36,747 nucleotides of DNA from positions 1 through 36,747 of the forward strand of contig CANHJH010000008.1 of assembly GCA_947460365.1 (NCBI GenBank). Reading direction: 5' to 3'. The notes under the pieces are model-generated. The model was not told the origin of the DNA. It saw only the letters and a program-made list of their open reading frames with translations, and did no database searches. The first letter of the stretch is position 1; each line of letters opens with the position of its first letter. This DNA comes from Sphingobacteriia bacterium. Its GTDB lineage: Bacteria > Bacteroidota > Bacteroidia > Chitinophagales > Chitinophagaceae. The position numbers and the translations under genes were made by a program. Positions 10,029-14,968 of the stretch are shown here, piece by piece.

Positions 10029-10066
10029 ACACGAAATCCACGCAAGTGGATTTTTTTGTTTGTGGG
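10029..10066. repeat. 38-bp direct repeat copy 1 (contains terminator-like hairpin)
   Basis: ACACGAAATCCACGCAAGTGGATTTTTTTGTTTGTGGG, identical to 11862-11899; stem AAATCCAC/GTGGATTT, GCAA loop, T-run. Confidence 0.95.
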
Positions 10067-10208: not shown

Positions 10209-10715
10209 ATGAAAATAGTTTCTATCTTAGCAGACAAATTATTCGCTTTTCATTATGTTGATGAGGATGAACATGAGTACAACAGATTGATGGAATTATG
10301 GACTGATGTGTCATTTTTAAAGAGTTATGCAAATAAAAACAACATAGACGATGTTACAACATTTATCAATGACATATTACAAGATGCTGAGCAGATTCAG
10401 GACTTTTTAGAAAATCTTAATCAAAACAATCAGCCCTATGAATTTTATTTTGAACCCTTAAAAACATCTGAAAGTATTAAATCGTTGGCATTTCATAAGG
10501 GGAAAATTAAGAAAAATCGACTAAGATTCTATGCCATTAAATTAGATGCGAATTGTTTTGTTATAACAGGAGGTGCAATTAAAATGAGTCAAAAAATGCA
10601 AGATCATCCTGATACAAATAATGAATTAATTAAATTGAAAAAAGCCAGAGCATATCTTAATATCAATGGAGTATTTGATGAAGATTCATTTTATGAACTA
10701 TTAATCGAACAATGA
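10209..10715 (+). CDS. Putative HigB/RelE-like toxin component of a TA(C) operon
   Basis: First gene of a coupled operon before an XRE gene; LRFYAIKLDANCFVITGGAIKMSQKMQDHPDTNNELIKL resembles HigB-like/Gp49-like toxin C-termini. Confidence 0.6.
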   Translation: MKIVSILADKLFAFHYVDEDEHEYNRLMELWTDVSFLKSYANKNNIDDVTTFINDILQDAEQIQDFLENLNQNNQPYEFYFEPLKTSESIKSLAFHKGKIKKNRLRFYAIKLDANCFVITGGAIKMSQKMQDHPDTNNELIKLKKARAYLNINGVFDEDSFYELLIEQ

Positions 10716-11176
10716 TGACAAACAAAGAAAAATTGCTAGCCTTAGTGTCTAGCGAAAAAACAAATACCTTAGAAAAGAATAAAGAACGAATAAGAAATCG
10801 TGCAATGTTGCGTGAATCGCAACAAATAGCCATTAAGGTATTAATGAAATTAGATGAATTAGGCTGGTCACAAAAAGACCTTGCCCAAAAAATGGAAGTT
10901 GCTCCACAACAAATTACAAAAATTGTAAGCGGAAAAGAGAACTTAACCATTGAAACGCAAATTAAGTTGCAGCATATTTTAAATATTCCTGTGTTGGCAA
11001 GCTATTATGAGAATAAAATGGTAAAAATTAACGAATGTATTCTGACCATTGAAAAAAGAGTGGAAAAAATATCAGCACAAACCATTCAGATTAAAGAGAA
11101 CTATCAGGCAACTAAAATCGTGAGAATAGAGCAACAAAATTATTTACAAGAATATTACCGAGCATTTGCTGTATAA
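10712..11176 (+). CDS. XRE-family HTH antitoxin with about 50-aa C-terminal extension
   Basis: LDELGWSQKDLAQKMEVAPQQITKIVSGKENLTIETQIKLQHIL is a classic HTH_3; ATGA overlap with upstream toxin. Confidence 0.8.
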   Translation: MMTNKEKLLALVSSEKTNTLEKNKERIRNRAMLRESQQIAIKVLMKLDELGWSQKDLAQKMEVAPQQITKIVSGKENLTIETQIKLQHILNIPVLASYYENKMVKINECILTIEKRVEKISAQTIQIKENYQATKIVRIEQQNYLQEYYRAFAV

Positions 11177-11616
11177 TGAAAAAAGAAAACGCACAGGTAG
11201 GTTTTGAATTGCAAGGAATAAAAACTGAGCAGTTTGCAATTTTGGAGGAAAATTTTGCTCCTCAAAAAGAAACAGGGTTAGTTACTGAATTACAGTTTAA
11301 GTTAGACCAGGAAAACGAACAAATCGGCGTATTTCTTGGGTTTGAATTTATTCAAGGAAAAAAGGTTTTTCTAAAAATTAAAGTGAGTTGTCATTTTAAA
11401 ATAGAAAAAAATGCTTGGGCAACATTTATACAGCACAACAAGTTGATAGTTCCTAAAGGGTTTTTGGCACACTTAGCAATGATAACCACGGGAACAACCA
11501 GAGGTGTGTTATTTGCAAAAACAGAAGCAACGCTATTTTCAAAATTTATGGTCCCCACTTTAAATGTTGCGGAAATGATAAAAGAAGATGCTTTGTTTGA
11601 TGTGGTAATTGAATAA
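11176..11616 (+). CDS. SecB-like chaperone (putative third component of a TAC system)
   Basis: TAATG coupling to the antitoxin; predicted beta-rich N-terminus then HLAMITTGTTRGVLFAKTEATLFSKFMVPTLNVAEMI, reminiscent of the SecB C-terminal helix and P-(L/I/T)-(N)-(hydrophobic) segment. Confidence 0.55.
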   Translation: MKKENAQVGFELQGIKTEQFAILEENFAPQKETGLVTELQFKLDQENEQIGVFLGFEFIQGKKVFLKIKVSCHFKIEKNAWATFIQHNKLIVPKGFLAHLAMITTGTTRGVLFAKTEATLFSKFMVPTLNVAEMIKEDALFDVVIE

Positions 11617-11861: not shown

Positions 11862-11899
11862 ACACGAAATCCACGCAAGTGGATTTTTTTGTTTGTGGG
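11862..11899. repeat. 38-bp direct repeat copy 2 (contains terminator-like hairpin)
   Basis: Identical to 10029-10066. Confidence 0.95.
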
Positions 11900-12027: not shown

Positions 12028-12492
12028 ATGAAACAACGAATTTATATAGACACTTCAATAGTTGGCGGCTACTTTGACGAAGAATTCAAGGATGCGACAC
12101 TAAAACTATTTGAGCGTCTAGATAATAATGAAATTATATTTGTAGTTTCTGATTTGCTTGACCTTGAATTAATAAATGCCCCACAACAAGTTAGAGAACA
12201 TCTATTTAAGTATTCGTCGGACAAATTTCAAAGAGTTGAACTGACTGATGAATCCGTAAAACTTGCTGACACTTATATAGATGAAAAAGTAGTTGGCAAG
12301 ACTAGTTTAGAAGATTGCCGTCATATTGCTTTAGCAACTATTCACAAAGTGGACGTTTTAGCAAGTTGGAATTTTAAACATATCGTAAACCTTGACAGGA
12401 TAAAGGGCTATAATTCTGTGAATTTGCGACTTGGATATTCAATGATTGAAATTAGAAGCCCTAAAGACTTAGTAAATTATGGTAACGAATAA
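12028..12492 (+). CDS. PIN-domain ribonuclease, putative toxin
   Basis: IYIDTSIVGGYFDEEF N-terminal Asp motif; TSLEDCRHIALATIHKVDVLASWNFKHIVN is the PIN acidic core. Confidence 0.85.
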   Translation: MKQRIYIDTSIVGGYFDEEFKDATLKLFERLDNNEIIFVVSDLLDLELINAPQQVREHLFKYSSDKFQRVELTDESVKLADTYIDEKVVGKTSLEDCRHIALATIHKVDVLASWNFKHIVNLDRIKGYNSVNLRLGYSMIEIRSPKDLVNYGNE

Positions 12493-12619
12493 AAAAGACA
12501 AACAGTTTGACGCTGTTAAAATGATGAGAGAGATCAGAGAAAAAATTAGTGCTGATACTCAAAACATGACATTCGAAGAGTTAAAAGTATATATCAAGAA
12601 AAAATTGGCAGACAATAAC
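12479..12619 (+). CDS. Small 46-aa protein overlapping the PIN gene, putative antitoxin
   Basis: Hand translation: MVTNKKDKQFDAVKMMREIREKISADTQNMTFEELKVYIKKKIGRQ*; ATG lies inside the 3' end of the PIN ORF; absent from the ORF track. Confidence 0.65.
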
Positions 12620-13007
12620 TCAAAACTTGTTGGCCAATAACAATTATGGAAGAAGGCTCTTATGTTAACATACTTCTCATTGTTCAGCGTACTTCATAAG
12701 TTTTAAAATGCTTTTGATTAGGTTTATTAATTTGTCGGGGAATGATTAAAATTTTTATTAAACGTATGTTTTTAATGCACTTTAATACACCATCCAAATT
12801 TTGCTATTTAGCACAATTTATCCCAAAACAATCGGAGCTACTAATGACGTCTTAGTAATATACCTAATTCATTACTTCTAAAAATGAAATGTGCTGTTAG
12901 GATTTTATTTTTCAATTCTTTTGATTATTTTGTGATGTAAATTAATTCGTCATATTGATAAGTTTCAAATGTTTCAAGCAATTACAATAAATTAAAAAAT
13001 ATAAACT

Positions 13008-13609: not shown

Positions 13610-14968
13610 ATGATTTCAAAATTAATAAATAAGTGCTATGAAAATTATTTAAATGTTGATTTATATTCAATCCACAGTGAAATGAATTCGTTTTCTAAAT
13701 ATCATTCCAAAAATGGAATAAAACTTGAAATCGATGACCTAGATCTTGAAAAAAATCCAATAGAATTCACAAATGTTACTAATGAGGAATTCAAATTAAT
13801 TACTTTTAATAATAAAAATTATTTAATTAGTAATTCAACTTGCTATCCCTGTTCAAAAGTTTTAGAAAATGCAACTGGATATAGATGGGTAGAGGTCTTA
13901 ATTATTCCTGATGGTAAAATAATAAAAAAAAATAGTAATTCATCAGTCAGATATAGCTTTTATAGACTTAAACTATTTGAATATTTAAAATCATTGGAGG
14001 ATATATTTAAATTCGATGGTATTTACTATGATACATTTTCCAATAATAATTGGTTTAGCCAATTAGAGAGAATCCAGTTTTTAGTTAGGTCAAAAGCATC
14101 GGGAGTTGAAATTATAAAAGCATTTCAAACTTTAAAATTGTTTAATCCATTTCAAATTAGTATTATTTCAATAATAGATGGATTAACAATAAATAAAAAT
14201 GAAATTCAAAATTATTTACTGAATAATAATTCTATTCCAATTGCAGTACCTTATATAACAACTCCTTCACTTAAAATTAAAATATCAGATAGTACGAATG
14301 AAATATTAGAAACTCAAGATTTTGTAATATTTGTAAATTCATTAACTGATGAAGAAGTGTCACAATTTTTTGAATTAGATTTTCTCGAAGAATCTTTAAA
14401 TTTAAAAAATATTTATCCTGAGTTTAAACTAGACATTTTAGGTATAAAAGTTTTGGAAAGGTGGTATAAATCTGGCATTAACAATAATATTTCTAAAATC
14501 TTTCAAGATAGACTTTTCGCAATAAATATTTCTGAAAAACTTATCCGTGAATACTATAAAAAACTCAAAAAAAATATCAGATCTATTGAAAATAAAATTA
14601 GAACTAATAAAGGATATAACATTGTTGGAAGTCTTTATAATGAAAGTTTACTTTTTAAATTAATACAGGAGACATTCCCTCATTACGAAATAATTTCTCA
14701 ATATAGTCCTGTTTGGTTAGGAAGGCAAAGGATAGATATATTCATTAAAGAATTAAATATTGCTATAGAGTATAATGGAAAACAACATTATGAACCTGTA
14801 ATGTATTTTGGTGGTAAAGAAGGTTATTTAAAAATTGTTCAACGTGATAATATCAAAAAGAAAAAATGCAATAAAAATGGATGCAAATTGATAGAAGTAA
14901 GATACGATGAAGATTTATATAAACTAGTTGAATGGTTAAAAAAGTATACCAATCAAATAGTCAGCTAG
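13610..14968 (+). CDS. Orphan protein with C-terminal PD-(D/E)XK/VSR-like nuclease domain
   Basis: RQRIDIFIKELNIAIEYNGKQHYEPVMYF...QRDNIKKKKCNKNGCKLIEVRYDED matches the D-x(n)-ExK...RD..K pattern of DUF559/VSR-like nucleases; N-terminal ~330 aa unrecognised. Confidence 0.7.
   Translation: MISKLINKCYENYLNVDLYSIHSEMNSFSKYHSKNGIKLEIDDLDLEKNPIEFTNVTNEEFKLITFNNKNYLISNSTCYPCSKVLENATGYRWVEVLIIPDGKIIKKNSNSSVRYSFYRLKLFEYLKSLEDIFKFDGIYYDTFSNNNWFSQLERIQFLVRSKASGVEIIKAFQTLKLFNPFQISIISIIDGLTINKNEIQNYLLNNNSIPIAVPYITTPSLKIKISDSTNEILETQDFVIFVNSLTDEEVSQFFELDFLEESLNLKNIYPEFKLDILGIKVLERWYKSGINNNISKIFQDRLFAINISEKLIREYYKKLKKNIRSIENKIRTNKGYNIVGSLYNESLLFKLIQETFPHYEIISQYSPVWLGRQRIDIFIKELNIAIEYNGKQHYEPVMYFGGKEGYLKIVQRDNIKKKKCNKNGCKLIEVRYDEDLYKLVEWLKKYTNQIVS

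Follow-up and report, generated by a model that had tools for sequence, protein, structure and literature searches.

A toxin-antitoxin-chaperone module in Bacteroidota with a SecB-like third gene, and the joint variation of chaperone and antitoxin tail among its relatives

Introduction

Three overlapping genes on a contig of a Chitinophagaceae bacterium (10209..11616, forward strand, of the window, by which we mean the whole analysed stretch of 36,747 nucleotides; source assembly 2.7 Mb, 82% complete) raise a question about dependence. Does the antitoxin of an apparent toxin-antitoxin pair rely on the SecB-like protein encoded directly behind it, and what might such an arrangement be for? Modules of the toxin-antitoxin-chaperone (TAC) kind have precedents in both Mycobacterium and E. 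coli. In these, a C-terminal chaperone-addiction (ChAD) segment causes the antitoxin to aggregate and to be degraded unless it is held by SecB (PMC5105189, PMC6377645). The mycobacterial antitoxin HigA1 ends in the ClpX degron Val-Ala, within its ChAD (PMC8165232), and CmdA of E. coli ends in LAA, likewise a ClpX degron (PMC11618068). The systems CmdTAC, MqsRAC and HigBAC protect E. coli against phages (PMC11618068, PMC9519451, PMC11980606). Phage proteins can divert the chaperone of a TAC module (PMC11618068), and for HigBAC a tail protein of lambda is cited as doing so (PMC11980606).

Results

The three reading frames are intact and coupled as the original prediction had it. The toxin gene (gene 1, 10209..10715, 168 aa) shares an ATGA overlap at 10712-10715 with the antitoxin gene (gene 2, 10712..11176, 154 aa), which in turn runs into the chaperone gene (gene 3, 11176..11616, 146 aa) through a TAATG overlap at 11174-11178. 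Gene 2 may truly begin at its second ATG (10715), because relatives start at the equivalent codon. Toxin, antitoxin and SecB-like genes are thus found in one operon, and this operon is not a product of chance, since homologous three-gene operons are present in many Bacteroidota and dN lies far below dS. In the comparison with L006, the nearest relative of good quality (RDZY01000027, 69-76% protein identity), dN and dS are 0.20 and 2.5 for gene 1, 0.17 and 1.7 for gene 2, and 0.14 and 1.1 for gene 3; dS is close to saturation, so that only the direction of the inequality is meaningful. Purifying selection acts on all three genes.

What kind of protein does gene 1 encode? Of the family libraries searched (Pfam, NCBIfam, PADLOC), only PADLOC recognises it, by its PDC-M64 candidate (1.6e-5). 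No HigB/RelE model of NCBIfam matches the window protein and none of Pfam matches any member of the toxin alignment (A5), and PDB sequence searches, with the single protein and with a profile, gave nothing useful. Weak Pfam matches (V-ATPase H, UvsY and others) are absent from the relatives of gene 1 and were set aside. The AlphaFold2 model built from 27 homologues (pLDDT 93.8, pTM 0.89) combines the strands and C-terminal helices of a RelE-like toxin with a three-helix block at residues 23-72, and this insert accounts for the length of 168 aa, which had been remarked upon as exceeding that of a typical HigB. A Foldseek search of the PDB places the toxin 6af4/6af3 of a toxin-antitoxin system from S. 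pneumoniae first (6af4_C: probability 1.00, E 2.3e-3, TM-score by target 0.65) and HigB2 of V. cholerae next, far behind; toxin-antitoxin toxins are the only high-probability matches. Gene 1 therefore has a fold of the BECR/RelE type, in agreement with the HigB-like toxin that had been proposed, and we use the term HigB-like with reference to fold only, since no HigB or RelE model of Pfam or NCBIfam matches. The two closest solved folds are shorter and lack the helical insert, and we know of no chaperone for either of them. Residues R106, G121, G122, K125 and E139 are invariant in the 27 relatives. Most likely, gene 1 encodes a ribonuclease that would block translation.

The assignment of gene 3 likewise depends on structure. 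The motif that had been read as SecB-like is present in the protein, which has no match in Pfam, NCBIfam or PDB sequence searches (single and profile) and does not reach the gathering cut-off of Pfam SecB (PF02556); nor does that family occur elsewhere in the window's own assembly, 82% complete as it is. The AlphaFold2 model, derived from 19 homologues (alignment A4; mean pLDDT 93.4), shows four strands that lead into a short helix, after which comes a long C-terminal one. Its best matches in the PDB are SecB proteins, all at a Foldseek probability of 1.00: SecB of H. influenzae (6.8e-4), SecB of E. coli (1.3e-3) and 5mtw (1.5e-3), the last being the SecB-like chaperone Rv1957 of M. tuberculosis together with a ChAD peptide. 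The E-values are modest overall (6.8e-4 to 2e-3), and 2o2a, a structural-genomics protein of unknown function, attains a similar one, but with a TM-score of only about 0.3. Aligned by hhalign to a profile of Pfam-positive SecB proteins, the gene 3 profile is collinear across 128 columns, a weak match with a probability of 40%. Modelling and fold comparison hence identify a SecB fold, contradicting the notion that gene 3 has no structural similarity to SecB, while sequence-level support is weak. Both folds anticipated for the module, that of SecB and that of HigB/RelE, were recovered by AlphaFold2.

A SecB-like protein had been considered notable in this lineage. Pfam SecB scores above cut-off in only 4 of 198 Bacteroidota genomes. 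Three of these four proteins (L125, L126 and L128, the last being the third gene of locus L040; genomes G237, G245 and G366) are encoded as the third gene behind relatives of the window toxin and antitoxin, and are thus positional equivalents of gene 3 that pass the Pfam threshold. The PADLOC candidate model PDC-M64C matches gene 3 (1.9e-12) and all 19 of the 19 chaperones in alignment A4.

Gene 2 contains an XRE helix-turn-helix (HTH_3, residues 47-93, 5.9e-10) and also matches PDC-M64C (1.6e-12); its score against the HigA family (2e-8) falls below the cut-off. Beyond the HTH extends a tail of about 57 aa (residues 98-154, 11003..11173), the putative ChAD, which ends in NYLQEYYRAFAV. This layout is close to the one first described, with an HTH up to around residue 95 and roughly 50 further residues. 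Within the antitoxin, the tail is faster-evolving than the part with the HTH.

Is the tail linked to the chaperone? Our set of operons comprises 64 loci, most of them found by running a toxin profile across Bacteroidota; the profile detected loci in 60 of 395 genomes of a phylum-wide sample and in 40 of 396 within the class. Among 52 non-redundant loci, 34 have a SecB-like gene (31 called by the profile script and three, with long overlaps, on inspection), 17 have none, and L040 carries the Pfam-type SecB. A six-frame profile search uncovered no hidden chaperone in the loci called chaperone-less. With a single exception among the 34 chaperone loci, the stretch following the HTH spans 48-141 aa where a chaperone is present (median about 55 aa) and 6-53 aa in the 17 loci without one (Mann-Whitney p=7.5e-8); the median number of aromatic residues in it is about six as against one (p=1.5e-8). 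The last two residues are small or hydrophobic in 27/34 antitoxins with a chaperone and in 2/17 without (p=8e-6). The chaperone-bearing members thus possess a ChAD-type C-terminal extension that chaperone-free relatives lack.

The association persists when phylogeny is allowed for. On an unrooted tree of toxin and HTH, from which the tail was excluded, the chaperone switches between present and absent at least 14 times. Eleven phylogenetically independent pairs are separated by well-supported branches; the tail is concordant with the chaperone in 10.5 of them on average and opposed in none (sign test, p about 0.001). Omitting three doubtful no-chaperone calls, two near contig ends (L014, L046) and one in a tandem array (L047), leaves nine pairs, 8.5 concordant on average and none opposed (p=0.004). 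Pairwise distances of chaperone and toxin are correlated (r=0.79 overall, 0.56 inside the large clade); this speaks for three genes in the ancestor and repeated loss afterwards, although the unrooted tree leaves gain versus loss unsettled. Among the relatives, chaperone and antitoxin tail come and go in concert about ten times. The ChAD role, which had been proposed from the position of the tail alone, now draws on this covariation.

Several individual loci deserve mention. The sole short tail beside a chaperone is that of L036 (2043-2483), in which a premature TAA lies just after the HTH and the chaperone gene is intact; past this stop the tail can be read at near-normal length to an end that overlaps the chaperone ATG. 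This is what an escape from chaperone dependence would be expected to look like. L003 (G180:C93) is a decayed copy of the entire module with in-frame stops TAG, TAA, TAG and TAG spread over all three genes; recoding of TAG was considered and rejected, as one of the stops is TAA. L080 (G755:C1) holds two or three copies of a toxin-antitoxin pair of the family in tandem, without a chaperone, and in L005 an ORF of degenerate VDYASRA repeats (978-1319) adjoins the TAC module.

The extreme C-terminus of the antitoxin resembles a degradation signal. In chaperone-linked tails, Ala occupies 52% of the -1 and 52% of the -2 positions and at most 12% of any other among the last 25, so that the typical end is -AA, or something similar in most chaperone-bearing relatives, as in a ClpX degron. 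The window antitoxin ends in -AV instead, and its RAFAV terminus fits the hydrophobic class of putative ClpX degrons. The chaperone's overlapping start codon might have imposed these Ala-rich ends, but this was rejected, given that they occur with both ATGA and TAATG junctions. Genomes of module-carrying relatives encode full-length ClpX in 8/9 cases and ClpP in 9/9. Neither was found in the window's own 82%-complete assembly; a single assembly gap would explain both absences, because the two genes are neighbours in the relative G067.

Of about 41 loci of the family that were examined, 13 lie in or beside restriction-modification (RM) genes: type I HsdS/HsdR (L009, L011, L082, L084, L087, L096), type III Mod/Res (L008, L085, L088, L115), type IIG or II methyltransferases (L086, L092) and McrBC (L095). 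Three-gene and two-gene forms alike are among them. The window module itself has rlmN on one side and hisS on the other; a PIN-domain gene and a small ORF come after it, and no RM operon surrounds it. PDC-M64 models match all three window proteins; PDC-M64 is a PADLOC candidate, and we found no description of its function in the literature searched. Two plasmids of Bacteroidales and a pair of Mu-like viral contigs also carry the two-gene form, here with an antitoxin of some 101-115 aa and lacking the chaperone. A scan of viral contigs with gene 3 retrieved no relative. On the Mu-like contigs of Bacteroidota (L121, L123), the two genes are placed between structural genes.

Discussion

By every feature testable here, the module belongs to the TAC kind, its toxin and chaperone being HigB-like and SecB-like by fold rather than by Pfam membership. 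How might it work? We consider it very probable that the locus encodes a type II TAC module, composed of a HigB/RelE-fold toxin, an HTH antitoxin with a ChAD tail and a SecB-like chaperone; most likely it would be triggered by phages to bring about abortive infection. The gene 2 protein would bind and neutralise the toxin and probably repress the operon by way of its HTH. Its tail, as the comparative evidence suggests, would have to be held by the gene 3 chaperone to be spared aggregation and degradation by ClpXP, the latter proceeding via the hydrophobic or Ala C-terminus. By analogy with CmdTAC and HigBAC, we envision that something, most likely a structural protein of a phage, draws the chaperone away, that the antitoxin is then destroyed and that the freed toxin would halt growth. 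Points that weigh against this reading are the very weak sequence resemblance of gene 3 to SecB, the modest Foldseek E-values, the -AV end in place of -AA, the position outside any RM operon, the failure to find ClpX and ClpP in the source assembly and the faster evolution of the tail.

The closest counterpart is HigBA1-SecB(TA) of M. tuberculosis (Rv1955-1956-1957), with which the module shares the order of toxin, XRE antitoxin and SecB, a HigB-type toxin, the SecB fold as seen in the match to 5mtw, an aromatic C-terminal extension of the antitoxin and a hydrophobic C-terminus of the ClpX degron type (Val-Ala in HigA1). Unlike its mycobacterial counterpart, the window module is from Bacteroidota and its toxin has the added helical insert; the chaperones are only 9-14% identical in the structural alignment, and the ChAD sequences are not recognisably alike. 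E. coli CmdTAC (PD-T4-9) is likewise tripartite with a SecB-like chaperone, and its antitoxin, ending in LAA, is degraded by ClpP once its chaperone has been taken up by a capsid protein of the phage. By contrast, its toxin CmdT is an ADP-ribosyltransferase, and the published description of CmdA is of two helices with an unstructured tail, not of an XRE protein. E. coli C496 HigBAC and MqsRAC resemble the module as TAC systems with RNase-type toxins that are reported to restrict phages, but we did not recognise in them the sequence families of the window module, and it is the relatives of the window module that are associated with RM genes.

Could the SecB-like protein be a general or export chaperone that acts on its own and is a mere companion of a two-gene system, the antitoxin having no need of it? 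Two-gene versions without a chaperone are common and evidently viable, as such a scenario would predict. We nevertheless regard it as very improbable, because antitoxins without a chaperone repeatedly lack the tail, the one changing along with the other, because toxin, antitoxin HTH and chaperone are co-inherited, because the genes overlap, and because three of the four Pfam SecB proteins of the phylum sample occupy this same slot. Hardly credible, in our estimation, is the idea that phylogeny, wrong start or stop calls or contig ends have only simulated the association of tail and chaperone: a few of the no-chaperone calls do come from near contig ends or from a tandem array, but the independent pairs remain concordant with none opposed when these are left out, and the six-frame search speaks against overlooked chaperones.

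The purpose of the module is a separate matter, and here an alternative has appreciable weight. It is possible, if rather unlikely, that this is a TAC module serving a stress response or the maintenance of a genetic element and not defence against phages. The first TAC studied, that of M. tuberculosis, was described as stress-responsive; the two-gene relatives reside on plasmids and Mu-like viral contigs in the manner of addiction modules; and the window module stands outside any RM operon. Against this are set the 13 in roughly 41 loci in or beside RM genes, the status of the family as a PADLOC defence candidate and the defence that CmdTAC, MqsRAC and HigBAC confer on E. coli. Anti-phage abortive infection thus appears the likeliest role of the family, since it is widespread in Bacteroidota, is frequently associated with RM operons and matches PDC-M64.

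Chaperone addiction has been demonstrated in the laboratory by tail grafting. The present family seems to constitute a natural experiment, run about ten times, on whether the tail makes an antitoxin need its chaperone. This repeated, paired switching of tail and chaperone is the new part and, as far as the limited literature searched shows, has not been described. A wider reading, in which we place as much belief as doubt, holds that a single toxin family of Bacteroidota has changed state many times: between three genes with chaperone dependence, a form often found in RM operons, and two genes without a chaperone, a form that plasmids and viral contigs carry as well. The ChAD and degron tail would have moved along with the chaperone each time, and the three-gene form may be a backup that halts the cell when a phage beats RM and diverts the chaperone. 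Close pairs of chaperone-bearing and chaperone-free members could reveal which residues create dependence, whether degron and chaperone-binding site are separable and whether an addiction module becomes a phage sensor on acquiring a chaperone. More generally, the findings widen the known range of TAC modules by a large phylum; canonical SecB is rare there, and most of these chaperones and toxins escape Pfam.

How the module came to its present site may be recorded in its flanks. A perfect 38-bp direct repeat, a hairpin followed by a T run (fold z-score -3.8), borders it on the left (10029..10066, forward strand) and, in identical form, on the right (11862..11899, forward strand). The assembly contains only these two full copies and one 24-nt partial match (C79:10225-10248). 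At other loci, flanking direct repeats are at most 21 bp long, except at L035, where a 71-bp exact direct repeat surrounds a chaperone-less toxin-antitoxin pair. The 38-bp repeat suggests a recent gain of the module or a recombination route to its loss; no empty site was found for it, the relatives within the genus matching the upstream gene only. Directly after the TAC genes, at 12028-12640, comes a PIN-domain gene (Pfam PIN 2.6e-4, just below cut-off) and, behind and overlapping it, a 53-aa ORF, a candidate for an atypical toxin-first PIN toxin-antitoxin pair. Further downstream, 13610-14968 encodes a protein of 452 aa that has no match in Pfam or PADLOC, and whose C-terminal part (IDIFIKELNIAIEYNGKQHYEP) resembles an endonuclease of the VSR/DUF559 type.
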